Source: Bacillota bacterium (GTDB lineage Bacteria; Bacillota; SHA-98; Ch115; JABLXJ01). From it: a stretch of DNA of 64,000 nt. Positions 1 through 19,495 of the stretch are shown here, in pieces (position 1 is the first letter of the stretch; the number at the start of each line of letters is the position of its first letter). Where the stretch lies: positions 1-64,000 of the forward strand of contig JABLXJ010000009.1 of NCBI GenBank assembly GCA_013178125.1, in the 5' to 3' direction. The notes under the pieces were generated by a model. It was given only the letters and a program-made list of their open reading frames with translations, ran no database searches and was not told the origin of the DNA. The position numbers were made by a program, and so were the translations under genes.

Positions 1-81
1 GCTATGCCTCAGGGGGTGGCCAGACCTGCCCCTGCCAACCTAAGGCCATTGTCTCAGGAAAGCCCCAAAACTTCAAGTCCT

Positions 82-191
82 GGGCTGTGGATATGGCGCA
101 TCTGTGGACTTATGGATAACCCCTTCGAGGTTACCCACAGGGTCCACAGATGCTTGGACAACGCTACGCGTTGACCACATATCCACAGCCC
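82..191. repeat. Nested palindrome, possible three-way-junction element
   Basis: The outer arms GGGCTGTGGATATG (82-95) and CATATCCACAGCCC (178-191) are a perfect 14-bp inverted repeat. Inside are a perfect 11-bp inverted repeat, GCATCTGTGGA (98-108) with TCCACAGATGC (143-153), a nearly perfect inner stem (114-121 with 129-136), and a 6-bp hairpin CAACGC/GCGTTG (159-173). The parts could fold as a three-way junction. CTGTGGA occurs four times, two in each direction. ATATCCACA (179-187 and, on the other strand, 86-94) is one base from a DnaA box, and TTATTCACA at 205-213 fits the box exactly. It could be an origin-like site, a mobile-element end or a structured RNA. The sequence does not decide between these. 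Confidence 0.6.
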
Positions 192-697
192 CGGCGACGA
201 CTATTTATTCACAGGTATATTTCTTGGAGTCTATTGTGATCTCAGCTAAAGTATACGAGGGGGTATTACCCTCGCAAAATTTCCTCAGTTTCTGTTCTGC
301 TGTTACTTTCCAATACTTTACATAGATAACTACAAAGGCTAAGTTGTGAAGGGACGAAGATGGAAAATCTTCTTGAAGTTTGAGGGATAGGCACCCGAAA
401 TCTATCGTCGTAACACTCAAGAAGTTAAGGTTTTGGCGAGATAATAGCATGGTTTTCCAAAATTTCATTTCCACTATGCAGGAAATCAACGAAATGAATC
501 GAAAAAACACATTGGCATGAGCACTGATCATATTTCGTAGACTTTCTGCCGCCTGGTGGCTGGTAGAGCCAGCTAGAAAGGTGGAGAAGGCCCAATATGG
601 TTCCTAATTCCATATTTGGTATCATATCTTTTGCGGGTCCTATTTACAAAACGCATCTGCCTGGCTCATGCACTCCATAGAATTGGAGGGTATCATA
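192..697. other. Leader region with no supported gene
   Basis: Short open frames occur on both strands, but none has a good ribosome site or a recognisable product. The sequence is AT-rich compared with the right part of the window. A small hairpin with arms CGAGGG and CCCTCG lies at 256-274. A promoter for the operon starting at 698 is expected here, but no convincing -35/-10 pair was picked out. Confidence 0.4.
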
Positions 698-2290
698 ATG
701 GCAAGGTTGGAGCGGACACAGAAACCCACCAGTCTATTAGTAGAAGAACTAAAGCAGGGGGGATTGGGGTTCCCCGAGATCCAGAGGGGTTATGTTTGGA
801 ATAGGTCTCAAGCCAGAGACCTGATAGATTCCCTTTACCGTGAATACCCGTCAGGTCTCATCCTCCTTTGGAGGCCTGAGGAACTGCCAGAATTACGAGA
901 AGGTCCTGGGGGCTCGACGTTCCAGAGGAGACCAGATTACCTGATTATAGATGGGCAGCAACGTTTAACTTCCCTAAGCCGGGTGTTCGATGGCACAATC
1001 AATGTCTATTTCAATGTGGAAGACGAGGTTTTCCAGGTCTATAGCACAAAACTTAAATCCAATCCCTTTTGGGTATCTGTCAAAGATGTGCTCAACGGGG
1101 GAGCGATTACGGCCTTACTTAATCTACAGCGAAACTCTAACTTGGATGCGGAAAAACAGACTATCTACGGCCAAAGGTTAGAACGGCTTGCAAAAATCAA
1201 AGACTACCTCTATCCTGTGATGATAATTCACACCGATGATTATGAGGAAGTCGCAGAATCCTTCATAAGAATCAATTCAAGGGGAACACGTCTACGAGAG
1301 GCCGAATTGGCAATGGCCCGCCTCGCCTTTCACTGGCCGGGATCAATTGTAAGGGAATTTGAGAAGGCATTGGATGAATACGAACAAGCAAATTATGATT
1401 TTGAAGCTCGTTTCTTGATGCGGTGCTACGTTGCGGTAGCCACAAACCAAAGTAGGTTCCGTCATCTCGGTGCACTCTGGCAGAAAAGCCAGGGGGAACT
1501 AGAAGATATATGGAAAAGGACGAAAAAGGCAATTGATCACACAATCAATTTCCTGAAGAACAACGCGGGTATTGAATCACTGGACTGGATCCCGTCTATC
1601 AATGCCCTCGTGCCGCTCGTCGGGTGGTTTTCGAAGAAGGATCTACTTTCAGAAGCGGAAGCAAGGGGCCTTCTTTTCTGGTTCTTTGAAGCCACGATAC
1701 ATGGAAGGTTTACGGGGAGCCCTGAGGCAAGGATTGACCAGGATCTACGAGCTATAGATAGTACCACTCCTCTCGAGAACATGATATTAAATCTCAGGCG
1801 TGAAATCGGAAGCTTTGAGGTTACCTCGGAGATGCTAGAGGGCAAACATCAAAGGCATCCTTTTGTTCCCTTACTATTTGTCATTTTTCGCAAGAATGGG
1901 GCCACCGACTGGTTTACTGGGACAATATTGAGTTCGACAAATGTAGGGGCCCCGCACCAGCTGGAACTCCATCATGTCTTCCCCAAGGCGATACTAAAAC
2001 AATCAGGCCTATATGATTCTGACAAGATCGATGACCTGGCCAATATTGTATTTCTGTCCCAACAAGCAAACCGAGCGATCCTCCAATCCTCGCCAGAAAA
2101 ATACCTACCGGAAATTGAAAAGGAAAAGCTCCAATCACAGCTCGTTCCATTAGACGAACGTCTCTGGAGAGTTGAGAGGTTTACTGAGTTTCTGAAAGAA
2201 AGAAGAGATCTATTGGCGAAGGCCATTAATACCTATTTGGGTGAGCTTGGGAGAGACCATCTTTCTAGCGGGAGGACTGTCTCTAGTTGA
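698..2290 (+). CDS. DUF262/HNH protein, GmrSD-like endonuclease candidate
   Basis: A 530-residue protein. The N-terminal half is a DUF262 (ParB-like) domain with PEIQRGYVW at about residues 26-34 and IDGQQRL at 84-90, the motif linked to NTP-dependent action in this family. Near residue 425 comes HHVFPK, then a conserved Asn-rich stretch (ANIVFLSQQANRAI), together an HNH-type nuclease end like DUF1524. This layout is shared with GmrSD and BrxU modification-dependent nucleases. The ATG at 698 was chosen because GGAGG lies at 685-689; an in-frame ATG at 668 has no such site. It heads the five-gene set and is 66 bp from the next gene. Nuclease family membership is fairly secure. The target, such as modified phage DNA, is inference. 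Confidence 0.85.
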   Translation: MARLERTQKPTSLLVEELKQGGLGFPEIQRGYVWNRSQARDLIDSLYREYPSGLILLWRPEELPELREGPGGSTFQRRPDYLIIDGQQRLTSLSRVFDGTINVYFNVEDEVFQVYSTKLKSNPFWVSVKDVLNGGAITALLNLQRNSNLDAEKQTIYGQRLERLAKIKDYLYPVMIIHTDDYEEVAESFIRINSRGTRLREAELAMARLAFHWPGSIVREFEKALDEYEQANYDFEARFLMRCYVAVATNQSRFRHLGALWQKSQGELEDIWKRTKKAIDHTINFLKNNAGIESLDWIPSINALVPLVGWFSKKDLLSEAEARGLLFWFFEATIHGRFTGSPEARIDQDLRAIDSTTPLENMILNLRREIGSFEVTSEMLEGKHQRHPFVPLLFVIFRKNGATDWFTGTILSSTNVGAPHQLELHHVFPKAILKQSGLYDSDKIDDLANIVFLSQQANRAILQSSPEKYLPEIEKEKLQSQLVPLDERLWRVERFTEFLKERRDLLAKAINTYLGELGRDHLSSGRTVSS

Positions 2291-2356
2291 CTGTTCCAGA
2301 TTAGGTATATCCTCGGAGACCCACATTTTAACTAGATTTGAAGGACGGGGCGGATA

Positions 2357-3289: not shown

Positions 3290-3318
3290 AATATGTCTGT
3301 CCCATGGAGTGAACGCAG

Positions 3319-6300
3319 ATGCAGGAATGTAGTATAGAAGCGGGAATGGTGATAATGGGCCCGATGTTCCCTGAGCCGGTAAGGGTCCTTGCTGCCAGGT
3401 ATATCGGCTCAAGCAGGGTCAAGATCGAGGCTGTCGGAGTCAATTCAAAGAAGTATTACGATCCAATTCTTGGCCTTGATGAACTATCTCGACTGACGAC
3501 ATCCCAAGGGGATACCCTCAACTTCACTGGTGACGGTGAACGGCTTTTTCTTTTCCTTGAGGCACACCGTATTCGCAATGCCTTTCAGTTTGACCCTTAT
3601 TATGGTGTGAGCGTTTCCCAGGTAGATGCTCTGCCGCACCAGATCGAGGCGGTATATCACTATATTCTCAAGAACCCGAATATCCGGTTTCTATTGGCTG
3701 ACGACCCAGGAGCGGGAAAGACCATTATGGCCGGGCTTGTTCTCAAGGAATTGAAATACCGGGGGCTGGTGAACCGCACGCTCATCATTGTTCCGGGGCA
3801 TCTGAAAGGTCAGTGGCTCAGGGAAATGAGAGAACGATTTCAAGAGAACTTCATCATTGTTGACCGCGGTGTTATGAATGCCACCTGGGGGCAGAATGTT
3901 TGGACGGAACGCCACCAGGTCATCACTTCGCTGGATTTCGCGAAACAGGAGGACGTGATGTTCACCCTTAAGGATTCCTCCTGGGATCTGGTGATCGTGG
4001 ATGAGGCTCACAAGATGTCTGCATATAAGTACGGTGACAAGATTGACAAGACCGTTCGGTATCAGTTTGGGGAATTGATCTCGGAAATTGCCAAGTACCT
4101 TCTCTTTCTGACTGCGACACCCCATCGTGGCGACCCAGAGAACTTCCGTCTCTTCTTGGATCTCCTGCAGCCAGGGTTTTTTGCCAACACCAAGATGCTT
4201 GCTGAGTCTATTAAAGATAAGGATAACCCCCTCTTCTTAAGGCGACTCAAGGAGGACCTCAAAGGATTTGATAATTCCCCTCTCTTCCCGCCCCGGCGGG
4301 TGGAGACGATAAAGTATCGGCTGAGCGAGCAAGAGAAGAAGCTTTATAACGCTGTCACGAAATATGTGGAACAGAACTTCAATAAGGCGCTACAAAAGGA
4401 AAAGCGGAATGTCACATTCGCCCTTACCATTCTGCAGAGGAGGCTTGCTTCTAGCATCAGGGCAGTACGCAAGTCTCTGGAGCGTCGCCGCAATAGGCTT
4501 GAAGAGCTGTACAGGAAGGGACAGATTCTCCAGGAGGCAGGATACTCTGAGAATTATTTAGAGGATCTCGAAGAAAGCCAGCGCTGGGAAAAAGAGGAGG
4601 AACTTCTCGAGAAGCTTACTTCAGCTGACTCTCTTGAGGAACTTCAGGATGAGATCAATAATCTGGATGAACTCGTAGGCTTGGCAAAAGAGGCTGAGAA
4701 GGGCGAAATTGAGACAAAGCTGGTACGAATCAAAGAGGTCTTGGATCAGGAGAGAATACGCGAGACGGGGACTAAGCTGCTTATTTTCACCGAATCAAAG
4801 GATACGATGGAGTATCTAGCGGAAAAACTGCGTCAATGGGGGTATATCGTTACTGTTATTCATGGCGGGATGAACATGGATGACCGCATCAGGGCTGAAC
4901 ATGAATTCAAGAATAGAGCACAGATCATGGTAGCCACTGAGGCGGCCGGCGAGGGTATCAACCTGCAATTCTGTTGGTTGATGGTGAACTACGATATCCC
5001 CTGGAACCCTAATCGCCTGGAGCAGAGGATGGGGCGCATTCACCGATATGGTCAGCGAAATGAAGTGCATATTTATAATCTGGTAGCAGTGGACACCCGC
5101 GAAGGAAGGATTTTGGAGAAGCTCTTTGAGAAGCTGGATCGTATGAAGGAACATCTGGGAAGCGACCGTGTGTTTGACGTAATTGGGGATGTATTGCCCG
5201 GAACAAGCCTGAAGGACCTTATACTCGATGCCATCTCTAGTCGGAGAACCATGGAGGATATCCTGGCCGAGATGGAGAGGATTCCAGATGAGGAAGCTAT
5301 CCAGAAGGTCAAGGAGGCCACCATGGAAGCCCTGGCTACTCGGCATATAGACCTTTCTCGAATCCTGGGGGAACAGAGAACGGCCGTGGAAAACCGGCTG
5401 GTGCCAGAGTATATCGAAAGATTCTTTCTCCGTGCGGCGCAGATGATCGGCATAAGGGTGGAAAAGCGCCAAGACGGCTTTTGGCGGATTACAGCTATCC
5501 CATTCGAGGTGCGCAACCAGCCCTATGAGTTCAAGGTAAAATATGGCGAAGTACAGCGGGAATACCTGAAGGTAGCCTTCGATAAGGTTATAGCCTTTAA
5601 GGGGCAGGCTGAGTTCGTAACCATGGGGCATCCCCTAATGGAAGCTGTATTAGAAACCGTACTTAAGGGATACAGACAGGACGCAGATAAAGGAGCAGTA
5701 TTTATCGACCCTGATGGCAAGCTCGATGGGCTACTATGGTTCATGACCGGGGAAGTCAAGGACGGGAAGGGCGATGTTGCAGGTCGTAGATTGCTTTGCG
5801 TCTATCAGACATCTGGTGGACAGCTCTTTCCTATCAACCCTTCGATTCTCTGGGATTTGAAGCCTGGGGAAGAAAATACCCCCCGTTGTTCACAGGCCGA
5901 AACCACGATATTTTCCAGGGAAGATGTCATAGATTTTGCTATCGAGCACCAGCTTACACCGTACAGGGACGAGCTCTTGGCACAAAGGCAGAGAGACGCC
6001 GAGATTAAAGCCAAATATGGTCTAAGATCTATTGACTCCATGATCCTGGAATCAGAGGCCAAATTGACCGAGTACGAAACGAGAAAGATCAAGGGTGAGA
6101 GCATTCCTGAAGTCGCTATTCTGCAGGAGCGACGAAGAAGGGAGGATCTCGAGGGAAAAAGGCAAAGGCTCCTTGATGATATCCGGGCTCATACAAATCT
6201 TTATCCTTCTGAGCCTAATGTGCTTTCCGTTATCCGTGTAATTCCGGGCGCACCCCGAGGAGATATGAATGGCGACGAGGACATAGAAAGGGTTGGTATG

Positions 6301-6657
6301 GAAGTCGCTATGGAATATGAGCGAAGTCAGGGTAGGACTCCCGAAGACGTATCCCTGCAGTCCCTTGGTTATGATGTTCGTTCAGCGGACATATGCGGAG
6401 ATTATCGCTACATAGAGGTAAAGGCCCGCGCCAGGACAGGAGCTATCGCCTTAACCCCAAATGAGTGGCTGATGGCTAACCGCCTGGGTGATGAGTATTG
6501 GCTATATGTTGTAGAAAATGCGACCAGCACCCCAGTTCTATTCACCTTACAGAACCCGGCGGCCCAACTTAAACCTGAAGAAGAGGTAGGCATAGTTCGC
6601 TATATCGTAAAAGACTGGCGAGAGAAGGCCTGTGTTGTTGGAGAGGGGCAGTTATAA
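3319..6657 (+). CDS. SNF2-type DEAH helicase with C-terminal DUF3883
   Basis: A 1112-residue superfamily 2 helicase or DNA translocase. Walker A is DPGAGKT (129-135), the Walker B box is DEAH (228-231), and motif III is TATPHRG. The second RecA lobe ends with QRMGRIHRYGQ near residues 569-580, the signature of SNF2/RapA-like enzymes. A charged, probably coiled-coil insert spans about 370-480. The last 110 residues carry a DUF3883-like domain with IEVKAR, resembling a PD-(D/E)xK nuclease core where E and K are the expected catalytic positions. GGAG lies 9 bp before the ATG. The gene ends in TAA directly followed by the ATG of the methylase gene. Helicase-DUF3883 proteins of this kind are recurrent in defence islands. 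It probably moves along invading DNA, but nuclease activity is untested. Confidence 0.93.
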   Translation: MQECSIEAGMVIMGPMFPEPVRVLAARYIGSSRVKIEAVGVNSKKYYDPILGLDELSRLTTSQGDTLNFTGDGERLFLFLEAHRIRNAFQFDPYYGVSVSQVDALPHQIEAVYHYILKNPNIRFLLADDPGAGKTIMAGLVLKELKYRGLVNRTLIIVPGHLKGQWLREMRERFQENFIIVDRGVMNATWGQNVWTERHQVITSLDFAKQEDVMFTLKDSSWDLVIVDEAHKMSAYKYGDKIDKTVRYQFGELISEIAKYLLFLTATPHRGDPENFRLFLDLLQPGFFANTKMLAESIKDKDNPLFLRRLKEDLKGFDNSPLFPPRRVETIKYRLSEQEKKLYNAVTKYVEQNFNKALQKEKRNVTFALTILQRRLASSIRAVRKSLERRRNRLEELYRKGQILQEAGYSENYLEDLEESQRWEKEEELLEKLTSADSLEELQDEINNLDELVGLAKEAEKGEIETKLVRIKEVLDQERIRETGTKLLIFTESKDTMEYLAEKLRQWGYIVTVIHGGMNMDDRIRAEHEFKNRAQIMVATEAAGEGINLQFCWLMVNYDIPWNPNRLEQRMGRIHRYGQRNEVHIYNLVAVDTREGRILEKLFEKLDRMKEHLGSDRVFDVIGDVLPGTSLKDLILDAISSRRTMEDILAEMERIPDEEAIQKVKEATMEALATRHIDLSRILGEQRTAVENRLVPEYIERFFLRAAQMIGIRVEKRQDGFWRITAIPFEVRNQPYEFKVKYGEVQREYLKVAFDKVIAFKGQAEFVTMGHPLMEAVLETVLKGYRQDADKGAVFIDPDGKLDGLLWFMTGEVKDGKGDVAGRRLLCVYQTSGGQLFPINPSILWDLKPGEENTPRCSQAETTIFSREDVIDFAIEHQLTPYRDELLAQRQRDAEIKAKYGLRSIDSMILESEAKLTEYETRKIKGESIPEVAILQERRRREDLEGKRQRLLDDIRAHTNLYPSEPNVLSVIRVIPGAPRGDMNGDEDIERVGMEVAMEYERSQGRTPEDVSLQSLGYDVRSADICGDYRYIEVKARARTGAIALTPNEWLMANRLGDEYWLYVVENATSTPVLFTLQNPAAQLKPEEEVGIVRYIVKDWREKACVVGEGQL

Positions 6658-9345
6658 ATGGCAAGGAGATCATTCATAGAAGCAAGTTTCCCAGTCCAAG
6701 CAGTAAGCGAGGAATCAGCAAAGGAGAAAAACATCCGCCATGGACATATCTCGACGCTCCATATTTGGTGGGCAAGAAAGCCATTAGCTTCATCGCGTGC
6801 CACCATTTATGCTGCTTTGATCCCAGAGCCAGAAGATGAACAGGAGAGGATAGCCAAGGCGAGCTTTATATCAAATCTATGTAAGTGGGAGAACTCGTCC
6901 AAGTCATATTACCTGGAACGAGCTAGGCGGGACATCCTGACATCATATGGCGGTAATTCCCCTAAGGTCTTAGACCCTTTCGCTGGGGGTGGCTCCATGC
7001 CTCTCGAGGCCTTGAGATTGGGTTGTGAGACCTATGCCAGCGATCTTAACCCCGTAGCCGTGCTAATTGAAAAGGCAACTCTAGAGTTTCCGCAGCGATA
7101 TGGCAAGGCGCAGAGAAGAAAAGAGAAAACCCCCATGGGGGAAATAGACAAGGAAGTCAATCCGCTCCTGGAAGACGTCAAGTATTGGGGAAATTGGGTT
7201 CTGGAAGAGGCTAGGCGAGAGCTTGAATGTTTCTATCCTGATGAACCTGATGGAAGTATCCCTGTGGGTTACTATTGGATGCATACTGTGCATTGTCAAA
7301 ACCCGGCATGTGGTTGCGAGATACCTTTAACAGCCAATTGGTGGCTAGCGAAGAAAGATAATAAGAGGGTAGCTCTACGCGTAGTGCCAAGAGGTAACAA
7401 AATCGGCTTTGAGATTGTCGAGGGGGGAAAAATCGACTTTGATCCCGAGGAAGGAACCGTCGCGAGGGCCAAAGTGATATGCCCCTGCTGTGGCAGCGGC
7501 CTTTCGGACAAAGAGGTGCGTAGGCAATTCCAGGAGGGGAAAGCAAGCCAACGAATGGTAGCCGTGGTACTCCATCATCCCCACAGACAGGGCAAAACCT
7601 ACCGGCTTGCAAACGAGCAAGACCTGGCCGTCTTTCAGGAAGCGGAAAGATATCTAGAAAAGAAGAGAGAGGAGCTATGGGATAAGTGGGGGATTGACCC
7701 GGTGCCAGATGAACCACTTGGACGAGTTCCTGTTACCTTCGGAGTAATCAATGTATGGGTCTATGGAATGAATAGTTGGGGCGACCTTTTCAATTTTCGA
7801 CAGAAGCTGGCTCTCATCACCTTTGAGGAGAAGGTGCGGCAGGCGCACGAGAAGATGCTGGCTGAGGGGTACGAGGAGGAATACGCCAGGGCGGTGGCGA
7901 CGTACTTGGCGTTTGGCGTGGATCGGCTAGCTTCACATCTAGCGGTGCTGGTAAGATGGCGGCCTGACGCTCTTTCTTTTGAAAGAGTATTTGATAGGCA
8001 GGCTTTGCCTATGGTTTGGGATTACGGTGAAGTCAACTCGTTTAGTGATGCAAGGGGACAATGGGATTTAGAACCAATACTGGAAGTGGTCAACTCTCTT
8101 TCGGTGGTTTCTGCTCCCGCCACTGTTACCCAGGCCTCCGCTATCTCATTGCCCCACCCTGACGACTACTTTGACGCCGTGGTCACCGACCCGCCGTACT
8201 ACGATAATGTACCCTACTCCTACCTTTCCGACTTTTTCTACATCTGGCTTAAACGAACGATAGGGCATTTATACCCTGACCTTCTTGCTACTCCTCTTAC
8301 CCCTAAATCTGAGGAAATCGTAGCTTATTCGCATGGTGAAGACGGCTTTGGAGGAGGCAAGAGGTTCTTTGAAGATATGATCACCAAGGCCTTCCGGGAG
8401 ATCTATCGTGTTCTAAAGCCTGAAGGTATCGCCGTAATTGTTTTTGCCCATAAGACTACTGATGCCTGGGAAACTATCATAAATGCCTTATTAGAGTCTG
8501 GACTCTATCTTACTGCCTCCTGGCCATTAAATACCGAAATGAAAGCGCGCCTTAGAGCTAAAGAATCTGCAGCTTTGGCTTCTTCCATTTACATGGTCTG
8601 TCGCAAAAGGACAACGAAAGAGACAGCTTACTTCAACGAAATCAAGCCTCAGGTAGAAAAGAGGATTCGTGAAAAGCTCGACCAGTTTTGGAATGAAGGG
8701 ATCAGCGGCAGCGACTTCTTCATTGCAGCCATCGGCCCCGCCTTGGAGGTATTCGGCCGGTATGAGAAGGTGGAGACTTATTCCGGGGAACCAATATCGG
8801 CAGAGAACCTGCTCGAGTTGATCCGCAGGACGGTTAGTGAATATGCTTTGGCCAGGATTCTCAAGGGTAGTCACCTGGGTGGAATCGATGCGGAAACCCG
8901 TTTCTACTTACTCTGGCGCTGGACATATAACGGTGCTAAGGTCCTCTTCGATGAGGCCCGTAAACTCGCTAATGCTGTGGGAATTGAGCTTACAGAGCAC
9001 TGGAATAACGGCTTTATTAGGAAGGATAAGGAATTCATTAGTGTACTGGGTCCCAAGGAACGGGACAGGAAGTTTCTGGAGAAGGAAAGGCTCAATAGCA
9101 TGGTGGATGTCCTTCATGCCTGCCTTCTTCTATGGGAGAAAAATGAGCGGAAGCGCATTACGGAAGTCCTCGAAGATACAGGGTATCTTTATAACAATGC
9201 CTTCTGGCAAGTGGCCCAGTCTATCTCTGAAGTGCTGCCGCCAGGGGAAAAGGAAAGGCAAATGCTACAGGGTTTCCTTTATGGCAGGGAGACTTATCAG
9301 AAGACCCAAGATGGCAATAGTGAAAAACAAGGTCGCCTGTTTTAA
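6658..9345 (+). CDS. DUF1156 adenine-specific DNA methylase with Zn ribbon
   Basis: An 895-residue N6-adenine methyltransferase of the COG1743 type. An N-terminal DUF1156 block ([19 protein letters not shown] near residue 30) precedes the AdoMet motif [14 protein letters not shown] at about 105-118. The catalytic motif DPPYYDN begins at residue 511. About 390 residues separate the two motifs, far more than in small adenine methylases. This insert holds two cysteine clusters, HCQNPACGC near 210 and CPCCGSG near 275, that could make a zinc ribbon. The start codon touches the helicase stop codon, which implies translational coupling. In defence operons such an enzyme marks host DNA as self; the target site cannot be read from the sequence. 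The family call is strong. Confidence 0.94.
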
Positions 9346-9372
9346 GGTCGCATTTATCGGGAGGTGTAAGTT

Positions 9373-12066
9373 GTGAGCTTACCAGCATGGTGGCAGGTGG
9401 TGACGCCTCATAAAGATATCCGGGAAAAGTCCTTCAGTGAAGCAGTCTTTGCTGCCGACCTTGGTGACGTCTTAAGTGGAACCGCTCCGCAGGAGTATGG
9501 TGATCCTCGCCTCTTCTTTGAAAAAACCTATATTACCGCAGGGCTGGCGAACCTTGTCCGTAATGTCCTGTCGCGGCTGACTACTGGCCAAGGAGATCCT
9601 GTAATTCAATTGCAGACCCCTTTTGGTGGGGGTAAGACTCACTCTCTCTTAACCCTTTATCACCTAGTTAATTCCTTTGACCATGTCAGCCACCTGAGTC
9701 AAGTTCAGGAGATGGTAGCAGGCCGCAGGCTTCTTGGTACGCGTGTGGCAGCTTTCGTAGGCACATCAGCAGACCCTGTAAAAGGAAGAACACCCTGGGG
9801 CGAGATTGCCTATCAATTTGGCTGTTATGAGATCGTTAAGGAACACGATGAACGTCGGGTGGCCCCAGGCAAGGAACGCATAAAAGAGATCCTCCAAAAA
9901 AGTGGGCCAACCCTTATCCTCATCGACGAATTGCTGCAATATGTAGTCAAGGCCAATCGGGTGGAGAAGGTAGATAAGATTACACAAGGGCAGACTTTGG
10001 CTTTCCTGCAGGAACTGTCAGAAGCAGTAGCCACGTCAGATAGGTCAGTCCTGGTCCTGACGCTGCCAGCTAGCATTTTGGAACAATACGATGAAGAGGC
10101 GGAAAAAGCCTTGTCTCAGATGCAAAAAGTGTCAGGCCGACTGGAAAGCATCTATGTACCTGTGGATGGAATGGAGCTCTATGAGGTAATCCGCAAACGC
10201 CTGTTCGAAGACTATGGGGATTCCAGGCTACATCGTCAAGTGGCAGAATGGTACTTCAAATCTTATCAAGGACTAGGCAGCGACGTGCCGAGTGAGGTAA
10301 AGGAGGTAGCTTACAGAGATAAGATAGAGCGAGCCTATCCCTTTCATCCTGAATTCATTGATGTCCTGTATGAACGTTGGGGGTCCTTCCCCACATTTCA
10401 GCGCACCCGTGGGGTTCTTAGGCTCCTGGCCCAAGTTGTCGGCGATTTGTACGAGCGCAAGGTTTCTGGACCTCTAATCCATTCATCAATGGTAGATTTG
10501 TCTCACCCGGCAGTGAGAAGGGAGTTTATCAAGCATATCGGCAATGAATATGACAGCATTATTGCAGCCGATATTGCAGGTAAAGCACGGCGGATCGACC
10601 GAGAAATGGGTAGCGAATACGAGAAGTATAGTATCGCCAACGGACTGGCCACATCTATCTTCCTGCATTCCTTTAGCGGCGGGGAGCGCAGAGGGGCGAC
10701 TCTCCCCTGGCTGAGGGTTTCGTTACTACGAGAGGGAATTCCGTCTACTATAGTGGGAGATGCCGTAAGTAAGCTCGAAGATTCTCTTTGGTATTTCCAT
10801 AAAGAGAAACGCTCTTACAGTTTCAAGAATCAGCCAAATCTAAACCGGATTATAGTGGATAAGGAAGACGCTATCGAGCCCGAACAGGTCCAGAATACTC
10901 TTCGTGAGTATCTAAGTAAGTTATCAAAGGGTGCCCCTTTTGATGCATATCTATGGCCAAAGGCCTCAGGGGATGTGCCTGACCACAGGCGACTTAAATT
11001 AGTGCTCCTAGGACTCGATCTCAAGCATGGGCAAAACGAGACGGATCGGCTTGCTAAGGAGCTAATAGACAATGCGGGCTCCTCTTTCCGCATTTACAGG
11101 AATACGATCTTTATTATGGCTCTGGACCCCGGTGCTTATATTAACCTAGAAAAGCAATTGAGACGTTTCCTTGCCCTGAAGGAAATTTCTGGTGATACGA
11201 GTATCATTTTAACTCCCGATGCCAGGGGGGAACTCCAAACCAGGCTTAAGCAATTGGAAGACGACCTCCCATTCCAAGTCGTCGCTACATATCGGCACGT
11301 AGCGTGGTACAGTACTGGTGGGCTCGTTTGGCATGATATGGGATTACCTACTGTAGGAGAGTCGTCGTCTATCGCTAAACGAGTATTCCAGTATCTGAAA
11401 GATGAGGAAAGGATTTTGGCTTCCCTTACGCCAAAGTTGATTCTTGATAAGGCTTTTGGCGATGGTGAAATAGAAAAGAGCCTGCAAGAAATCTACGACA
11501 TCTTCCTAAAAACACCTGGGCTACCTTGCCTGGAAAATGAGACGGTGCTCATAGAGGCTGCCAAGCAGGGAACAAGATCAGGACTCTTGGGACTGCGTAT
11601 TGACGGTACCCTCTATTTTGAAGAGTCTCCGCCTGACCCACCTATGGAGGCTCTCCTGCTGCCACCTGCAAGGGCAGCAGAAGAGAAAAAGGCTAGTTGG
11701 GAGGCTAGCTATGCCCCAGGAGACACTACCTCTGCCAGTAGTTACAAAGGTATTGTTCCAATAAGACCGGGCAATGTGATGGATGGGGCCGAAGATAAGA
11801 AAGTGACTGTTGAGGGGGAGCCCCTACAGCCTGCCCAATCCCGAGTCAAACGAGTTGCCATCAAGGCCGCCATTCCTTGGGACAAACTCTCGCAGATAGT
11901 TACTGGTGTCATTCGCCCACTGAAGGCTCTTGGGTCTGATCCGGAGATCGTTATCGAGATCAAAGCGGAGGCCGAAAATGGTTTTGATCGCACAACACTG
12001 GATAGTAAAGTAAGGGAGACTTTACTACAGTTGGGTTCGAACATAGTGGAATGGAAGGAAAACTGA
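9373..12066 (+). CDS. DUF499 AAA-type P-loop ATPase
   Basis: An 897-residue protein of the DUF499 (COG1483) family. Walker A is GGGKTH (85-90) and Walker B is ILIDE (182-186). The N-terminal stretch before it, with a 'PRLFFEKTYIT' segment, is typical of the family. The C-terminal part, about 780-897, is more variable. The GTG start at 9373 is preceded by GGGAGGTG at 9359-9366, a strong site. The gene follows the methylase by 27 bp and ends the tight operon. DUF499 and DUF1156 proteins are repeatedly found together with helicases in defence islands. Its role is unknown; sensing or remodelling of DNA or of partner complexes is a guess based on the ATPase class. Confidence 0.92.
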   Translation: MSLPAWWQVVTPHKDIREKSFSEAVFAADLGDVLSGTAPQEYGDPRLFFEKTYITAGLANLVRNVLSRLTTGQGDPVIQLQTPFGGGKTHSLLTLYHLVNSFDHVSHLSQVQEMVAGRRLLGTRVAAFVGTSADPVKGRTPWGEIAYQFGCYEIVKEHDERRVAPGKERIKEILQKSGPTLILIDELLQYVVKANRVEKVDKITQGQTLAFLQELSEAVATSDRSVLVLTLPASILEQYDEEAEKALSQMQKVSGRLESIYVPVDGMELYEVIRKRLFEDYGDSRLHRQVAEWYFKSYQGLGSDVPSEVKEVAYRDKIERAYPFHPEFIDVLYERWGSFPTFQRTRGVLRLLAQVVGDLYERKVSGPLIHSSMVDLSHPAVRREFIKHIGNEYDSIIAADIAGKARRIDREMGSEYEKYSIANGLATSIFLHSFSGGERRGATLPWLRVSLLREGIPSTIVGDAVSKLEDSLWYFHKEKRSYSFKNQPNLNRIIVDKEDAIEPEQVQNTLREYLSKLSKGAPFDAYLWPKASGDVPDHRRLKLVLLGLDLKHGQNETDRLAKELIDNAGSSFRIYRNTIFIMALDPGAYINLEKQLRRFLALKEISGDTSIILTPDARGELQTRLKQLEDDLPFQVVATYRHVAWYSTGGLVWHDMGLPTVGESSSIAKRVFQYLKDEERILASLTPKLILDKAFGDGEIEKSLQEIYDIFLKTPGLPCLENETVLIEAAKQGTRSGLLGLRIDGTLYFEESPPDPPMEALLLPPARAAEEKKASWEASYAPGDTTSASSYKGIVPIRPGNVMDGAEDKKVTVEGEPLQPAQSRVKRVAIKAAIPWDKLSQIVTGVIRPLKALGSDPEIVIEIKAEAENGFDRTTLDSKVRETLLQLGSNIVEWKEN

Positions 12067-12188
12067 GGTGGGCAACGTTGGTAGTCATTAGCACGAAGGT
12101 CTCACTATAGATTCCCATCGTAAGCAGGTCCTCGAGTGCCATAGATATCTAGTTTTCCATAGGGTTACTCGGGAAGGGGTTGGCCCGT

Positions 12189-13004: not shown

Positions 13005-13246
13005 TTGTGACTATCATAGTCTTCTCGTGGCTTGGCTATCAGTGGTGAGACTATGTGATTTTAAAGGCACTCGGGGGCGATTATGGCAACGGGTCAAAGT
13101 AATAGTATCTCAGAGATTACCTCACGCCCCCAACACCATAACGTATGAATCCCTCTCAAAACCCATGAGGCACGGTGGCGTTATAAGCTACTTTTCTGCG
13201 GATCGTGTTCATAGTCAATCCGATTGGTAAATATGAATACTGAAGG

Positions 13247-15361
13247 ATGAATGTCGAAATGCACACTCGTATTGAAGTTATTGGTAAGGAATCTCCCCAC
13301 TTGGCCACCGTAGAGGCCCTTTGGAGAGCCAATGCCTCGACTCTTGGTTTCCTTCCAGAGGGAGCATTTATCGAGTACGCCACCCGAGGGAATATAATTG
13401 GTGCTTTGGATGATGATGGGAAGTGCATTGGCTATTTGATGTTTCGAAAAACGCACGGCCGGGTCACCATTGTTCATCTCTGCGTTGACAGGTTATATCG
13501 TCGCAAGGGAGTAGCGCGTGAACTTGTCAATCATCTTATCTGTCTCACCCAAGATTCCCTAGGGATCGGTCTGACATGTCGCCGGGACTTTGAAGCAAGC
13601 AGGCTTTGGCCTGAGTTAGGCTTTGTTGCTCTATACGATAAGATTGGCAAAAACCGACAAGGTATTAACCTTACTTTCTGGTGGCTCGATCACGGGCATC
13701 CAACCCTGTTCACTTTGCCTCAAACAGAACAACCGCTATCCAAGTTTCGTGTTGTTATTGACATGAACATCTTTCTCGACTTACAGGACCATGCCAATCC
13801 CGGCGCCGAGGAGTCCAAATCATTACAAGCCGATTGGTTACAAGAGAGTCTTGAACTGTGCATGACCGAGGAAGTGTTCAATGAGATAGACCGAATTAAA
13901 GATCCCGAGGAAAGGAACCGACGACGGGCAATGGCGCACATGTTTACCATTGTTAGGTGCAACAGCCAGGCTTTTGAATCTGCATTGCAGTCAACGCGTA
14001 GATTCTTTCCCGAAGTCATGAGCGAGAGTGACAAGTCTGACCATCGTCACCTGGCAAGAACCGTAGCATCTGGAGAGCAGTTCTTTGTAACCCGCGATGA
14101 AGACCTATTGCGAATCGCAGATGACTTGTATGAGGCTGTTGGTATTTCGGTGGTTTCTCCGTCTGAGGTGGTTATTAGACTAGATGAATTGCTCAGGGAG
14201 GCTGAGTATCACCCTGCTCGGCTAGCCGGTACAGCTTTTCATATAGGCCGTGTTTGCAGCGGGCAAGAAAGGGCAATGTTGGATGTCTTCCGCTGTGCGA
14301 ATAAAAGGGAAAGGAAGTCTGATTTTTCCCAGCAGATGCGTCGTTTTCTTGCTTATCCGCAGAGATTTACCTGCCTTATTGTTTCCAATGAACAGCGGGA
14401 ACCGGTCGCGTTGGTTGTATATGATAAAGGAAACGAACATGTGTTAGAAATTCCGATAATTCGAATCCGACCGGGGCCTTTAGAGGGAACCATAGCGCGA
14501 CACTTAATCTCCCGAGCGGTGACGCTCTCATCGAGGGAAAGGCGGGTTTTGACAAAAATTAGTGACCACTATAGCAGCGATGTCATAATAGCCGCCCTTC
14601 GTGAAGGCGGTTTTATTCAGGCTAATGAGGAATGGATAAAAGTGAATCTGGCAGTTGCGGAGCCTGCTGCGCGACTCTCTGAACGTCTAGCCAGTCTGAT
14701 TCAAATACACGGACTCGAGCATGAATGCTTCACTCGTCTTATGAGTACTCTTGGCATACATGAAGCAACCATGGACCCTCAAATTGCTGCACAGATCGAA
14801 CATTTATTGTGGCCTGCAAAGATTATTGATGCAAATATACCCACGTTTGTCATCCCTATTAAACCCAAATGGGCGCAACATCTATTCGACGAAAACTTGG
14901 CTAGACAAACATTATTTGGGGCCATACCAGAAATCGCGCTGAACCAAGAGGCTGTGTATTATCGTGCGGTTCGTCCGTCTGGCGGGCTAGTGGCGCCTGG
15001 GCGGATTTTATGGTACGTTAGCTATGATAGACGTTACCCTGGGTCTGGGCAAGTACGGGCGTGTTCTCGCCTTGATGAGATTGTAATTGATCTCCCGCAG
15101 GTTCTATACCGGCGGTTTCGTCGGTTAGGTGTATATACGTGGCGGGATGTTCTCAGGGGGGTACATGGACGCCCCGACAGTGTCATGATGGCTATTCGGT
15201 TTAGCAATACAGAATTATTTGCTAATCCCATTCCATGGCAAGTACTTCAGGATATCCTACAAGCGGAGGGCCATAAGTCCCAGATTCAATCGCCGCTGCG
15301 TATCCCAAACCGTATCTTTGAGAAACTATACGTCTTAGGCACACGAGTTAACGAGGGGTGA
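13247..15361 (+). CDS. GNAT-PIN-ASCH-like multidomain fusion
   Basis: A 704-residue protein with at least three parts. Residues 1-150 are a GNAT acetyltransferase, with the acyl-CoA loop RRKGVARELV near 85-95. Residues 165-315 look like a PIN ribonuclease: VVIDMNIFLDL (first acidic site near 171), TEEVFNEID near 207, and TRDEDLL near 282. Residues 320-480 may be a second, degenerate GNAT. From about 530 to 650 a PUA/ASCH-like domain follows (FVIPIKPKW, ILWYVSYDRRY, RRLGVYTWRDV). The next gene, a stand-alone ASCH protein, begins directly after it, so the two probably act together. The ATG at 13247 has only AAGG touching it; ATG at 13259 is an alternative. It may act on tRNA or other RNA, possibly as a toxin or RNA-directed defence. 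Domain calls are better supported than function. Confidence 0.8.
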   Translation: MNVEMHTRIEVIGKESPHLATVEALWRANASTLGFLPEGAFIEYATRGNIIGALDDDGKCIGYLMFRKTHGRVTIVHLCVDRLYRRKGVARELVNHLICLTQDSLGIGLTCRRDFEASRLWPELGFVALYDKIGKNRQGINLTFWWLDHGHPTLFTLPQTEQPLSKFRVVIDMNIFLDLQDHANPGAEESKSLQADWLQESLELCMTEEVFNEIDRIKDPEERNRRRAMAHMFTIVRCNSQAFESALQSTRRFFPEVMSESDKSDHRHLARTVASGEQFFVTRDEDLLRIADDLYEAVGISVVSPSEVVIRLDELLREAEYHPARLAGTAFHIGRVCSGQERAMLDVFRCANKRERKSDFSQQMRRFLAYPQRFTCLIVSNEQREPVALVVYDKGNEHVLEIPIIRIRPGPLEGTIARHLISRAVTLSSRERRVLTKISDHYSSDVIIAALREGGFIQANEEWIKVNLAVAEPAARLSERLASLIQIHGLEHECFTRLMSTLGIHEATMDPQIAAQIEHLLWPAKIIDANIPTFVIPIKPKWAQHLFDENLARQTLFGAIPEIALNQEAVYYRAVRPSGGLVAPGRILWYVSYDRRYPGSGQVRACSRLDEIVIDLPQVLYRRFRRLGVYTWRDVLRGVHGRPDSVMMAIRFSNTELFANPIPWQVLQDILQAEGHKSQIQSPLRIPNRIFEKLYVLGTRVNEG

Positions 15362-15366
15362 GGTAT

Positions 15367-15840
15367 ATGCAAGAAAAATCGATACTACTCCTGTCAATCC
15401 GTTCTCAGTATGCAGAAAGAATTTTCAATGGGGCGAAGACGGTTGAACTTCGGCGGGTACGCCCGAGGGTCCGGGAAGGCGATTGGGTCCTAGTCTATGT
15501 TCCATCTCCCGTTAAGGCCATAATGGGTGGATTTAGAGTCAGGAGCGTTGTGGAGGCGGCACCCTGTGACCTTTGGTACAGAGTTAAGCATTTTGCATGT
15601 GTGTCCCGCCAGAAGTTCGATACCTATTATGCTGGAGCATCTATAGGCTTCGGTATCTTCCTATACAATCCCAGGCTCCTTAAATATCCAATAAGCCTTG
15701 GATATCTGAGACAATTCTGGCCTGGCTTCCGAGCGCCTCAAGGATATCGCTATGTGCCAATCAATGCTATTAGCTTTCTTGGAATCACTGACCAATTGCT
15801 GACCGTCACCGGGATGGAACAACTTGAGATGGTTCTATGA
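15367..15840 (+). CDS. ASCH domain protein
   Basis: A 157-residue ASCH (PUA-superfamily) protein, a fold that binds RNA or modified nucleotides. The recognisable core is LLLSIRSQYAERIFNGAKT followed by VELRRV, GDWVLVYVPSPVKAIMGGF and a trailing aromatic-rich segment. The ATG at 15367 is preceded by GAGGGG; a GTG at 15358 overlapping the upstream stop is the alternative. The upstream fusion protein itself carries an ASCH-like end, so this pair could form a heteromeric complex. It could be the antitoxin or RNA-recognition partner of the PIN nuclease, which is inference. The stop overlaps an ATGA motif, but the downstream gene most likely starts later, at 15936. Confidence 0.85.
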   Translation: MQEKSILLLSIRSQYAERIFNGAKTVELRRVRPRVREGDWVLVYVPSPVKAIMGGFRVRSVVEAAPCDLWYRVKHFACVSRQKFDTYYAGASIGFGIFLYNPRLLKYPISLGYLRQFWPGFRAPQGYRYVPINAISFLGITDQLLTVTGMEQLEMVL

Positions 15841-15935
15841 AGATAAGAGGTCGGTTTGATGCTCAGTCATATTCCATGGGGTCTATTGTAATTCCAGCCC
15901 AGATATGCAGGCCAGAGTATACGAGGGGAGATAGT

Positions 15936-16946
15936 ATGAAGCAAGGCAGTTATACTATTGCGTTTATGCCATGGGCATTTCTAGGCAGCGAACTTCTTGT
16001 TGGCAATTACCGAATATGGAATTTTTGGGCTCTATGAGACAAGTATGTGACTGATCCCTTAGTAAGGACTACGCTTGAAAAATACTTCTCCCGCTATCTC
16101 TACACAAAGCTACGACCTGGATTCCAGGAGGTCGTCTGCGAGAGTCTGTCAGTAATATCACCGGGGCAAGGGTTAAATGTAGACGATATCGAAAACGTTC
16201 TAAGAGTAGCGCGGGCAGTAGCTTTCTCAGCGATTATGGATGACCCGTGGGAAAGGGTTTCAACAGATACTTGGGCCGTCTATTTCCAAAATTATTCTCC
16301 CGGCCATTCAGGCATCACTATTGGAGATTCATACTTTTCGTCGGTAGACCTGGTGAAGTTCCTCAGGCCATACTCTGCTTATGAACCACTTGTTCCGTTT
16401 TGCGGTAACAAATTTTTGTCTGGATTGGGAGAAATAGTCGGCAGTAAAGGGGAAGAAATCCAAAGGATTTTCACTGCGCTTGAATGGTTCTGTCGCGCGT
16501 GGACCCGAAATGAGATGGTCAGTGATTGGTCAAGAATTGTGTGTTTGGTGATAGCCTTTGAGTCTCTGTTTGATTTTGACAACAAGTTTGAATTCATGAG
16601 TAAGGTGAAGGAGATTGTCCGAGACCCAGCGCCAATCAATGAGACGCGCAAGATTCCAAACCAGGACTGCAGGGAAAAGACGGAAAGAGAAATGACTCGA
16701 AGCCTTGTTGAGTGGTGGGCTTACGACCTTTACAATCTTCGAAACGCTATCGTCCATGGAAGGACTCCGGACCCAAGCAGGCTCACCTACAAGGGAAACA
16801 AGTCACATCTTATAATTGCAAAGAGAGTTTTTGAGAAAGCTATCAAACGGTGCCTAGTTGAGCTAAATCTATATCCCATGAGCGAAATAGAGGAAATCTT
16901 CGAGTCTGAGCCTATAGATCAATGGCTTTCACAGGCAGATGAATAG
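15936..16946 (+). pseudogene. HEPN-type gene interrupted by an in-frame TGA
   Basis: One reading frame runs from the ATG at 15936 (GAGGGGAG just before it) to 16946, broken only by TGA at 16035-16037. The frame resumes as DKYVTDPLVRTTLEKYF, and a GTG at 16047 could restart a 299-residue protein. The C-terminal part has RNAIVHG near the end, the Rx4-6H motif of HEPN domains, in an Apea-like context (DLYNLRNAIVHGR). HEPN proteins are often RNases in toxin-antitoxin and abortive infection systems. The 33 codons before the TGA (IAFMPWAFLGSELLVGN and what follows) look like the natural N-terminus. It may therefore be a recent nonsense mutation, a sequencing error, or a gene read from the internal GTG. 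Confidence 0.7.
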
Positions 16947-17244
16947 GGTGGACTCTTGGGCTTGACCCATAGGGGGAATTCCCGCCCAATTCCCTTAAAT
17001 GGGGCAAAGGCCAAAAAGGAAAAGACTCCCTGGTAATTTGGGTTCTCTTTTGTCCGTCAGATGTAATATTTAATATTCAATAATAACCGGGAATGAACGG
17101 GAATTGATGCATGAACGGGCCAGATATCTCGGCGGCTGCGGCAACCCCACCTAGGACGCCTGGTAGTAAAGATATATAGTGGTGCGTTCCCATGGTATAG
17201 CCGGAATCCCACAATGTAATCGTGGACAATGTTCAGAAACCTAT
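16947..17244. other. Intergenic stretch, no gene seen
   Basis: About 300 bp of AT-rich sequence between the HEPN gene and the convergent small gene. It has no convincing reading frame, RNA gene or strong terminator. A short complementary pair, GGGGGAATTCCCGCCC, lies near 16972-16987, but it is not followed by a T-run. Confidence 0.4.
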
Positions 17245-17529
17245 TTAAGGCAGCTCTTCAACGAAGGACTCCTCGCCTCCGAACTCGGCGAGTCGTGCCA
17301 CACCGAGAGTGGCCCGTAGCTTGATGTCTTCTGGGCACTCGTCGAGGTAAGTTTCTGTGCAGAGGATTGGGGGCCCGTCATGGTTGTCAAGGTAGCCGAT
17401 CACGGGCTGGTACTGACGGACGTATGGACCTTCCACCTCGAGCGCGCACTCGCCCTCTCGTCCCTCGGGTCCATACCATATGGCATAGTCGCCCGGGCCT
17501 GACACGTCGGGCTCACGCCAAGGCTTCAT
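17245..17529 (-). CDS. Small hypothetical protein
   Basis: A 94-residue acidic protein, not recognised. It begins MKPWREPDVSGPGDYAIWYG, contains paired charged and aromatic residues, and has no membrane segment or signal peptide. The start was placed at the internal ATG because AAGGGAGA lies 7 bp upstream; a longer frame to 17577 lacks such a site. It lies inside the island on the same strand as the recombinase, about 300 bp downstream of it. It could be cargo. Coding likelihood is moderate because GC usage is higher than in the flanking non-coding DNA. Confidence 0.5.
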   Translation of the reverse strand: MKPWREPDVSGPGDYAIWYGPEGREGECALEVEGPYVRQYQPVIGYLDNHDGPPILCTETYLDECPEDIKLRATLGVARLAEFGGEESFVEELP

Positions 17530-17788
17530 AGACAACTCTCCCTTCTCTTCGAATCGTTTTGATGCAGGCTCTCTCATGCCGCACGGGGCAAGACATAAAC
17601 TGTGACAAGATTGAGGCCCATGTAGCTTCCTATATACAAGGGGTGGGGCTCCGAAAGAATTCTGGGAATAAGGTTGGATTACGTAGGGCCCCGGAGAAAA
17701 AACCTGCTATTCTGTAGGGTATTAAGCGCAATCCCGCATCACATCTGAGTGTTAATGTCCGTTCATAGAGAAAAAGGACTTACTCCAT

Positions 17789-17820
17789 AAGGGCCCCTAG
17801 ATCCAGCTCTAGGGGCCTTT
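17789..17820. terminator. Hairpin terminator after the recombinase gene
   Basis: Arms AAGGGCCCCTAGA (17789-17801) and TCTAGGGGCCTTT (17808-17820) pair over 13 positions with one mismatch around a 6-base loop. It lies 9 bp beyond the recombinase stop codon. A short T-run follows on the plus strand, so it may work in either direction. Confidence 0.6.
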
Positions 17821-17828
17821 TGGGTTAC

Positions 17829-18818
17829 CTATGACTGGGAGTTTCTTCTTTTGATCTTTGTAAGCCTTTCGCGGTTCTGGTCAGCCAGGATTTTCATGAC
17901 CGGAGATGCGGTTTTATGTTCCCGCTGTATATCCTCGGCAAGGAGTCTTGCATAACGTTCTGTCATCGCAAATGTAGTATGTCCGAGCATCCTCTTGAGG
18001 GCAAGGAGTTCTCCCCCATTTCTCAGGAACATGATAGCAAACGTGTGGCGAAGGTCATAGCTTCTTGTTTCCTTTGAGAGTTTTGCCTTTGTGGTATATT
18101 TCTTAAAATCATGCTCCCACGAGGTTTCTAGGCGTTTCTTTCCATCCCATGAACAGAAAATGGGCTTGTCCTCCCCCCAGGTACTTGGTCTCACCCTCAG
18201 GAGCGATCTAAGCTCCAATGAAGTCTTGGTAGATATGGGAACGACGCGGTCCCTGCGCGTTTTGGAAATGCTGGCAGGTATGTATATTGTGCAGTCAGTG
18301 GGATTGAAATGACGGGGAAGTATACTTAAGGCTTCGCTGGGGCGGATGCCGCAATCGAGCATAACCAGCATTATGACATAATCCCGAAAACCTGAGTATT
18401 CGCGTTTGTTGGGCGCTTTGAGGAGCTCACGAATCTGATCCTCTGAAAGATAGTGTATTTCGTCCTCGAGTTTCCTATTTTTAACACCATTCAGCGGGTT
18501 GGTTTCGAGCACCTCTTCCTGAATGAGCCAGTTAAAGAAGGCCTTCAAGTAGGTTTTTCGGAGGTTGAAGGTGTAGGAGTTATCGAACGCGCTGAGATAT
18601 TCGAGGGCTTTTTCTTTGAGGTCATTGCTGTCGTTATGATTTGCGCCAGTCCTGCTGAAGAACTGGGTGATGGTCTTTTTATAATCCAGGAGTGTCTTTG
18701 GGGCAGAGCCACATGTCTGCTTGAAGAAGAGGAATTTCTCAAGCACCTCCTTCCACGACTCGAATTTGTTGGTGGCAACTTTCGGTCCCTTTGGTCTGGG
18801 GCCGCCCCATTTAACCAT
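17829..18818 (-). CDS. Tyrosine recombinase (phage-type integrase)
   Basis: A 329-residue site-specific recombinase. The N-terminal SAM-like core-binding domain (about 15-110) is followed by the catalytic domain with the Arg in GIRPSEAL, the H-x-x-R box YDLRHTF near residue 255, the second His in LGHTTFAMTERYA and the nucleophile Tyr in that same motif. All active-site residues are visible, so it should be functional. The start MVKWGG was selected because GGAGGG lies a few bases upstream; the longer frame to 18920 is not supported. It faces away from the tRNA array and lies about 180 bp from a truncated tRNA-Lys, the usual place for an island integrase. It probably mobilised the left-hand island, whose other end is outside the window. 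Confidence 0.93.
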   Translation of the reverse strand: MVKWGGPRPKGPKVATNKFESWKEVLEKFLFFKQTCGSAPKTLLDYKKTITQFFSRTGANHNDSNDLKEKALEYLSAFDNSYTFNLRKTYLKAFFNWLIQEEVLETNPLNGVKNRKLEDEIHYLSEDQIRELLKAPNKREYSGFRDYVIMLVMLDCGIRPSEALSILPRHFNPTDCTIYIPASISKTRRDRVVPISTKTSLELRSLLRVRPSTWGEDKPIFCSWDGKKRLETSWEHDFKKYTTKAKLSKETRSYDLRHTFAIMFLRNGGELLALKRMLGHTTFAMTERYARLLAEDIQREHKTASPVMKILADQNRERLTKIKRRNSQS

Positions 18819-19000
18819 AACAAAACCCTCCAAAAGATGTAATATTTGGAGGGCCAAGTCATCTGTCGCAAAAATCTTTGTTTGGTGTATCATCACTACT
18901 CTGCTTCTGATCAGCGACAAGGGACTGTGGGGTCATTATGTACCTTTTTGCCACCCGATTATGGCTTCTAGCAGGGGTTTTACATATTCTAGTCGGCCTG

Positions 19001-19041
19001 GGATTAAGAGTCAGCTGCTCTACCAACTGAGCTAATGGCGC
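19001..19041 (-). pseudogene. 5' half of a tRNA-Lys (CTT), truncated
   Basis: Reading on the minus strand from 19041, the sequence gives a full acceptor 5' strand, T8-A9, a normal D arm, the 5' anticodon stem and loop CTCTTAA with anticodon CTT. From the 3' side of the anticodon stem on, the sequence is unrelated (CCCAGGCCGACTAG). No variable loop, T arm or 3' acceptor strand follows, so the tRNA cannot fold. It sits between tRNA-Met and the recombinase gene and may be a remnant of island integration, or a misjoined contig. Confidence 0.75.
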
Positions 19042-19062: not shown

Positions 19063-19139
19063 TGGTAGCGGCGACTGGATTCGAACCAGTGACGCCACGG
19101 GTATGAACCGTGTGCTCTGACCAGCTGAGCTACGCCGCC
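19063..19139 (-). tRNA. tRNA-Met (elongator, CAT)
   Basis: A 77-nt cloverleaf with encoded CCA. The acceptor is GGCGGCG paired with CGCCGCT (a G-U at position 1-72). The anticodon stem is CACGG/CCGTG with loop TTCATAC, anticodon CAT. The T arm is TGGTTCGAATCCA-like. The paired 1-72 position and lack of three consecutive G-C pairs distinguish it from the initiator next to it. Confidence 0.96.
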
Positions 19140-19144
19140 ACATA

Positions 19145-19220
<76 letters not shown>

Positions 19221-19495
19221 TCGTTTCTATCGTTTTTGGTGAAGATCGCGATCACCAGCTATTATTATAGCAGATGGAACGCTCTAGTCAAGGGGTATAG
19301 GCGAAGTTGTTCGAGACCCATCCCGGTCCCTATACCCACCCGATACCGGTAACCTGTTCGTATAATGACTCATATCATACTCATGAGCCAACAAGAGCTC
19401 CCGATGAAGCAACGGAGTCTTGAAACGACCGTCCCGCAAATCAAATTTCGCAGGTCAAATCGCTTAAATTGGCCGTTTCGCAGGAGGTGAGGTCC

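Follow-up and report, generated by a model that had tools for sequence, protein, structure and literature searches.

A tyrosine integrase island at a severed tRNA-Lys(CUU) gene in a Bacillota bacterium: two half genes on separate contigs and an apparently unrestored tRNA

In this study, we analyzed the first 64 kb of contig C9 (JABLXJ010000009.1; hereafter the window) from a Bacillota bacterium whose assembly (GCA_013178125.1) consists of 54 contigs, and we focused on a tyrosine integrase gene that lies next to one half of a tRNA-Lys gene. The features of this locus are all on the minus strand. A sigma-70-like promoter (TTGACT-16-TATAAT, 19264..19291, 11 of 12 consensus bases) belongs to a tRNA cluster that includes two intact host tRNA-Met genes detected by ARAGORN and Rfam (19145..19220, which we take to be initiator-like from its 5' end, and 19063..19139). 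The lone 5' half of tRNA-Lys(CUU) (19002..19041) starts 21 bp beyond the second tRNA-Met, and its final 14 bp, GCTGACTCTTAATC (19002..19015), form the crossover core. The core is followed by an arm of the element (18822..19001), which constitutes a leader of approximately 180 nt for the integrase gene (17829..18821) and contains a conserved GCTAgAaGcC-like block in an alignment with the arms of six other loci. The integrase (330 aa) reads in the same direction as the tRNA, was assigned by PF00589 (6.7e-27), by PHROG integrase and by its position in a phylogenetic tree, and likely starts at the ATG at 18821 rather than at the TTG at 18920.

The minus strand from 19041 to 19002 reads GCGCCATTAGCTCAGTTGGTAGAGCAGCTGACTCTTAATC, which corresponds to positions 1–40 of tRNA-Lys(CUU) and is identical to the same positions of the intact tRNA-Lys(CTT) gene in the same-genus genome G001 (L065:1465-1540, minus strand). 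The match covers the anticodon loop plus two nucleotides of the 3' stem and ends there. The intact gene in G001 follows two tRNA-Met genes, and the window has the matching pair before the half gene. ARAGORN and Rfam called no tRNA at 19002-19041, and the 5' half is single-copy in its own genome when up to three mismatches are allowed (reversed-pattern control, 0). Chance similarity was ruled out by the exact 40-nt match and the syntenic position. A tRNA intron was ruled out as well, because the far half is located on a different contig beside an integrase and relatives are split likewise in other tRNAs. The preliminary description of this locus, a normal tRNA-Lys 5' half running into foreign sequence beside a recombinase, was thus correct, and the junction at 19001/19002 is almost certainly a genuine attL of a site-specific insertion.

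A pattern of the T arm and acceptor end had one exact match in the genome, at C41:8434-8458 (minus strand). The minus strand of this 9265-bp contig reads CCCTTG, GCTGACTCTTAATC, and then AGCGGGTCC through to the terminal ACCA; from the core onward, this is the last 50 nt of tRNA-Lys (L103:8434-8483), 100% identical to the G001 gene. The two halves overlap by the 14 bp of the core in the anticodon stem-loop (L103:8470-8483 on C41), and the core has two copies in 225,572 bases of own-genome loci. An overlap of this length would be expected from recombination of the host tRNA with an element having only that core in common. The two junctions look, from their sequences, like attL and attR of one insertion. 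It had been proposed beforehand that the adjacent integrase crossed over within the anticodon loop, and the common core at which both halves end agrees with this; the 3' half expected at the far end of the island also exists, and C41 probably represents that far end.

C41 encodes a second integrase, int2 (L103:7120-8327, plus strand), which faces the tRNA 3' end and is frameshifted. Among 398 genomes chosen as a sample of the phylum, 85 had matches to integrases of this type at E 1e-50. When 29 loci from this search and L081 were run through ARAGORN, at least one complete tRNA was present in the stretch for 21 of the 30, and in L081, L192, L205, and L211 the integrase lies at the 3' end of a complete tRNA-Lys(CTT). 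tRNA-Lys is therefore a common target of both island types, and C41 most likely shows the island of the window stacked upstream of an older island. Scans with int2 found no relatives in 24 stretches of genome contigs or in viral contigs, and the ORF at L103:9009-9263 had no match in plasmids, phages, Pfam, or PHROGs. The C41 sequence before the core reached 11 in a structure score that counts acceptor pairs, the D stem, and GG in the loop; 9% of 20,000 random stretches reach this value, compared with 16 for the true half. We considered whether C41 holds a degenerate 5' half, but the sequence is no better than chance by this score. Rfam gave the C41 junction 26.4 bits (cut-off 29), with three of seven acceptor pairs broken. 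Apart from this locus, the single-contig genome G391 has a lone tRNA-Lys(CTT) 3' half (L191:2532-2579) that immediately follows a same-strand int2-type integrase, and the matching 5' half was not found in the surrounding 160 kb.

We propose that the integrase of the window used the 14-bp core to insert a defense-gene island into the host tRNA-Lys(CUU) gene, within its anticodon stem-loop. The host 5' half would remain at the integrase end as attL (window 19002-19041), and the host 3' half at the far end as attR (L103:8434-8483), beside the frameshifted integrase of another, older island. Unlike its relatives, this island would bring no recognizable replacement half, leaving tRNA-Lys(CUU) inactivated, and the cell would then read AAG with tRNA-Lys(UUU). 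We assign a probability of about 0.58 to this account as a whole, that is, the insertion, C41 as its far end, and a tRNA-Lys(CUU) that was not restored. That the island came in without restoring the gene, one of the options raised in the preliminary description, is the best fit here and stands as such, short of proof.

The tRNA inventory bears on the last step. All 43 Rfam tRNA matches in the assembly were typed, completing a count called for earlier, and no complete tRNA-Lys was among them. A tRNA-Lys(TTT) query run against four genomes in a BLAST-type search found intact Lys genes in G001 and G003, and the Lys-like places in the genome of the window (G000) were the two halves only. In G001 and G003, tRNA-Lys(TTT) adjoins tRNA-Glu(TTC); both are missing from the assembly studied here, and therefore one gap explains both. 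We infer that tRNA-Lys(UUU) exists and falls in such a gap and that tRNA-Lys(CUU) has been lost. AAG outnumbers AAA in the window (AAG:AAA 45:21 in five host ORFs and 170:110 in eight island ORFs), and the loss of tRNA-Lys(CUU) would therefore be costly if tRNA-Lys(UUU) did not read AAG, as it should. The ends of C9, C8, C17, and C39 have exactly 127 bp in common, as a k=127 graph gives; assembly k is therefore near 127, and a 76-bp tRNA whose repeats span 40 or 50 bp should be assembled without a break.

The integrase family provides the context for this locus. At E 1e-30 or better, the integrase had matches in 47 of the 398 genomes. The listing has 69 rows, two of which are one gene, giving 68 places, and 35 of these were examined, including the window. 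A complete tRNA is located approximately 85–300 nt upstream of the integrase on the same strand in 19 of the 35 loci, a lone tRNA 5' half followed by a same-strand integrase occurs in 11 (window included), and five were unclassed. The lone halves derive from tRNA-Lys (window, G013, and G010), tRNA-Phe (G009), tRNA-Thr (G012), tRNA-Arg-TCG (G012 and G015), tRNA-Arg-CCG (C13 of the genome studied here), and tRNA-Leu (G348, G307, and G214). In the phylogenetic tree, in which rows L149 and L158 are partial, the integrase of the window pairs with that of G009 (71% identical over 306 columns; support 100/100) inside a nine-row clade that has lone halves in all seven classed rows and two unclassed rows. 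Across this clade, the sequences that directly follow the core are homologous. The lone-half state appears in three places in the tree, and its label needs three changes compared with a mean of 9.1 after shuffling. Integrase scans of genome contigs (12 stretches) found no relatives, and those of viral contigs found one distant relative. At L155 (approximately 4300-4520, G010:C18), a family integrase follows a bare tRNA-Thr anticodon core and then an apparent host gene end, possibly a secondary integration site. L119 gave the first impression of a free attP and was then left unclassified; its upstream side is presumably the end of a host gene.

Where the far ends of related elements are visible, they contain a complete tRNA. 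G348 and G214, each a single contig, and contig C1 of G307 have a complete tRNA at a distance of approximately 8–14 kb, on the side where it was expected; upstream of the core, its sequence matches that of the lone half exactly over 99, 60, and 60 bp in this set, a stretch that includes a -10 box. The corresponding identity in G010 is 44 bp, and a new promoter (TTGACA-17-TAAACT) precedes the complete gene. The complete tRNA thus stands behind a promoter in four genomes (G348, G307, G214, and G010). The genome of the window itself contains a lone Arg-CCG half on C13 (L161, approximately 6332-6373) and a complete Arg-CCG tRNA on C19 (L020:1498-1573), with 48 bp in common and arms that have a common 17-nt motif (16 of 17, E 0.002); a promoter directly upstream of this complete tRNA was not shown. 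The Arg-CCG pair thus marks another island in G000 whose integrase belongs to this family. In G013, L148:1-56 and L147 have 56 bp in common ending at the core, with the complete-tRNA copy at a contig start; one contig runs into the island and the other into an intact tRNA-Lys, which may represent an empty-site allele, with both alleles in one population. The integrase family therefore includes islands that carry a 5' half, together with a promoter in G348, G307, G214, and G010, and a lone 5' half is what such islands ordinarily leave behind. A lone 5' half had initially been regarded as odd in itself. This view no longer holds, since finished relatives have the same scar and a complete tRNA at the far end; the special feature of the island in the window is its apparent failure to restore the tRNA.

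Several observations weigh against the proposed account. All five elements with a visible far end restore the tRNA, using an element-borne 5' half, and two element ends in the clade of the window (G010 and G012) are homologous over 82 nt including the promoter region (71%, E 7e-6). The closest integrase relative (72%) is inserted in tRNA-Phe, a gene that no cell can dispense with: the integrase of G009 has cut this gene (L150:13512-13564, G009:C45), the G009 assembly contains no complete tRNA-Phe, and a far-end search there found the lone Phe part only. Since no cell can live without a Lys tRNA, the present assembly must lack at least one in any case, and no Lys gene was found with the tRNA-Lys(TTT) query in G002, from the same order, so that absence from an assembly is not rare. 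On C41, Rfam scores the junction over its full length (E 0.0019) despite the broken acceptor pairs. The arm motif that links the own Arg pair has no significant counterpart between the arm of the window and the C41 sequence before the core (best 12-mer, E 0.77). The stacking leaves room for that sequence to be the end of a third element, and C41 could mark where a different stacked island joins or could stem from a circular form of the int2 island. These points come together in a possible but less favored explanation, in which the island is an ordinary 5'-half carrier whose far end, with a promoter, the spare 5' half, and the host 3' half forming a complete tRNA-Lys(CUU), lies in an assembly gap, and the C41 half comes from another stacked island or from an int2-island circle. 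The restoring relatives favor it, as do the G009 assembly, which shows that far ends do go missing, and the int2-type integrases at the 3' ends of complete tRNA-Lys(CTT) genes. However, it supposes both an unassembled complete tRNA and one more element or circle, int2 carries a frameshift, the overlap of the halves is a prediction of one insertion, and neither of the two attP-like patterns had a match in viral contigs.

The remaining alternatives have far lower probabilities. A later deletion or rearrangement that removed a restored tRNA and left both ends decayed was among the earlier suggestions, and the frameshifted int2 beside the 3' half does point to decayed islands at this locus. Such a loss is quite unlikely and is not needed, since both halves exist and end cleanly at the same 14-bp core, and the integrase of the window is intact and has stayed similar to its relatives. 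A misjoin at 19001 from assembly or binning, likewise suggested at the outset, could be imagined in a fragmented assembly in which C9 ends in a repeat. It is highly improbable given that four relatives (G013, G010, G012, and G009) have the same junction type and homologous downstream arms, that an integrase is adjacent and the breakpoint falls exactly within the anticodon arm, and that the contigs derive from a k=127-like graph.

In the integrated state, the host tRNA promoter points through the lone half into the integrase gene. The leader contains a perfect 9-bp inverted repeat (18826..18853, minus strand; z -3.2) in which CCCTCCAAA pairs with TTTGGAGGG, the latter holding the Shine-Dalgarno sequence of the integrase gene. 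A start was found in 33 of 34 loci, and 31 had a good Shine-Dalgarno match. At least four of five Shine-Dalgarno bases are paired with an upstream partner in 24 of these 31 family members, compared with 129 of 403 control ORFs (odds ratio 7.3, p 8e-7, with base composition unmatched and related loci unweighted). Hairpins that cover the Shine-Dalgarno sequence immediately ahead of the integrase start are thus common in the family. The severed tRNA promoter may now drive the integrase gene behind a hairpin that hides its ribosome site, and, by analogy with ICEKp1, the family may borrow the tRNA promoter for integrase expression and throttle it. More tentatively, the island may be so far alone in its 5'-half-carrying clade in having lost its spare half, with tRNA-Lys(CUU) permanently off and the severed promoter and half tRNA serving as a throttled integrase leader. 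It could then be an intermediate, outside actinophages, between tRNA-restoring islands and tRNA-dependent lysogeny.

The cargo identifies the element as a defense island. An Hma-type defense system on the plus strand (3319-12066) comprises an HmaA-like SNF2 helicase (3319..6657, PADLOC 8e-213), an HmaB-like DUF1156 DNA methylase (6658..9345, 4.8e-142), and an HmaC-like DUF499 ATPase (9373..12066, 5.2e-144). Its neighbors include a GmrSD_N (DUF262-type), HEC-05-like protein found by profile searches (668..2290, plus strand), an ADP-ribosylglycohydrolase, and PDC-M11A/B-like proteins. The GC content is 45–50% in the island and 54–60% to the right of 20 kb. Positions 1..127 are the contig end and correspond to the 127 bp common to the ends of C8, C17, and C39, a mobile or repeated sequence beyond which the island continues. 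No tRNA gene was found within 1-19001, the 19 kb of the island that are assembled, nor was a cognate tRNA for the island found among the tRNAs of the genome.

The common view is that islands leave the tRNA gene at their insertion site unharmed. If the tRNA was indeed not restored, the present case shows an island tolerating the loss of a redundant tRNA, a step toward phages that have to supply one themselves. Within one family, the 5'-half state arose in three places, and the switch between carrying a 3' and a 5' half, seldom described in bacteria, can be tested with close relatives such as L161 and L159.

The integrase lies inside the element approximately 180 nt from the core, and a tRNA fragment with an identical core is found at both junctions, as in tDNA islands, provided that the junctions belong to one element; the host 5' half is displaced at one end, as in 5'-half carriers. 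According to the portion of the Islander paper available to us, 159 of 3919 islands have a 5' fragment (PMC4383910). That class resembles the present locus in its tyrosine integrase, a crossover centered on the anticodon, and a host 5' fragment left at one end, and relatives of the integrase rebuild the far-end tRNA with a 5' half supplied by the element; it differs in that no restored tRNA was found for the island in the window. A review, likewise available in part, describes the 5'-half arrangement as seldom met in bacteria (PMC8371274). The arrangement is therefore known but rare. In the same excerpt, pTN3-like integrases yield a rebuilt tRNA read from an element promoter, as in G348, G307, G214, and G010, but they are archaeal (PMC8371274). 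The phages of tRNA-dependent lysogeny (Fionnbharth, LeBron, Gaia, and others), as presented in the accessible text, have 8–17 bp in common with their target, leave the tRNA unrestored, and encode a cognate tRNA, with tRNA-Lys the commonest target, as the UUU isoacceptor (PMC10865867). The window is similar in its short core (14 bp) and, if C41 is the far end, in that neither junction rebuilds the tRNA. It is different in that no tRNA is seen on the assembled part of the island and in that its target is the CUU isoacceptor, whose role UUU could take over; the island would therefore need no carried tRNA. For ICEKp1, the extract available to us reports that the integrase gene uses the tRNA-Asn promoter and that stem-loops in the leader act as an attenuator (PMC13023037). 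Both elements have an integrase gene downstream of a tRNA promoter and stem-loops in its leader, but ICEKp1 keeps a complete tRNA-Asn, whereas the window has only half a tRNA and a predicted hairpin that covers the Shine-Dalgarno sequence.
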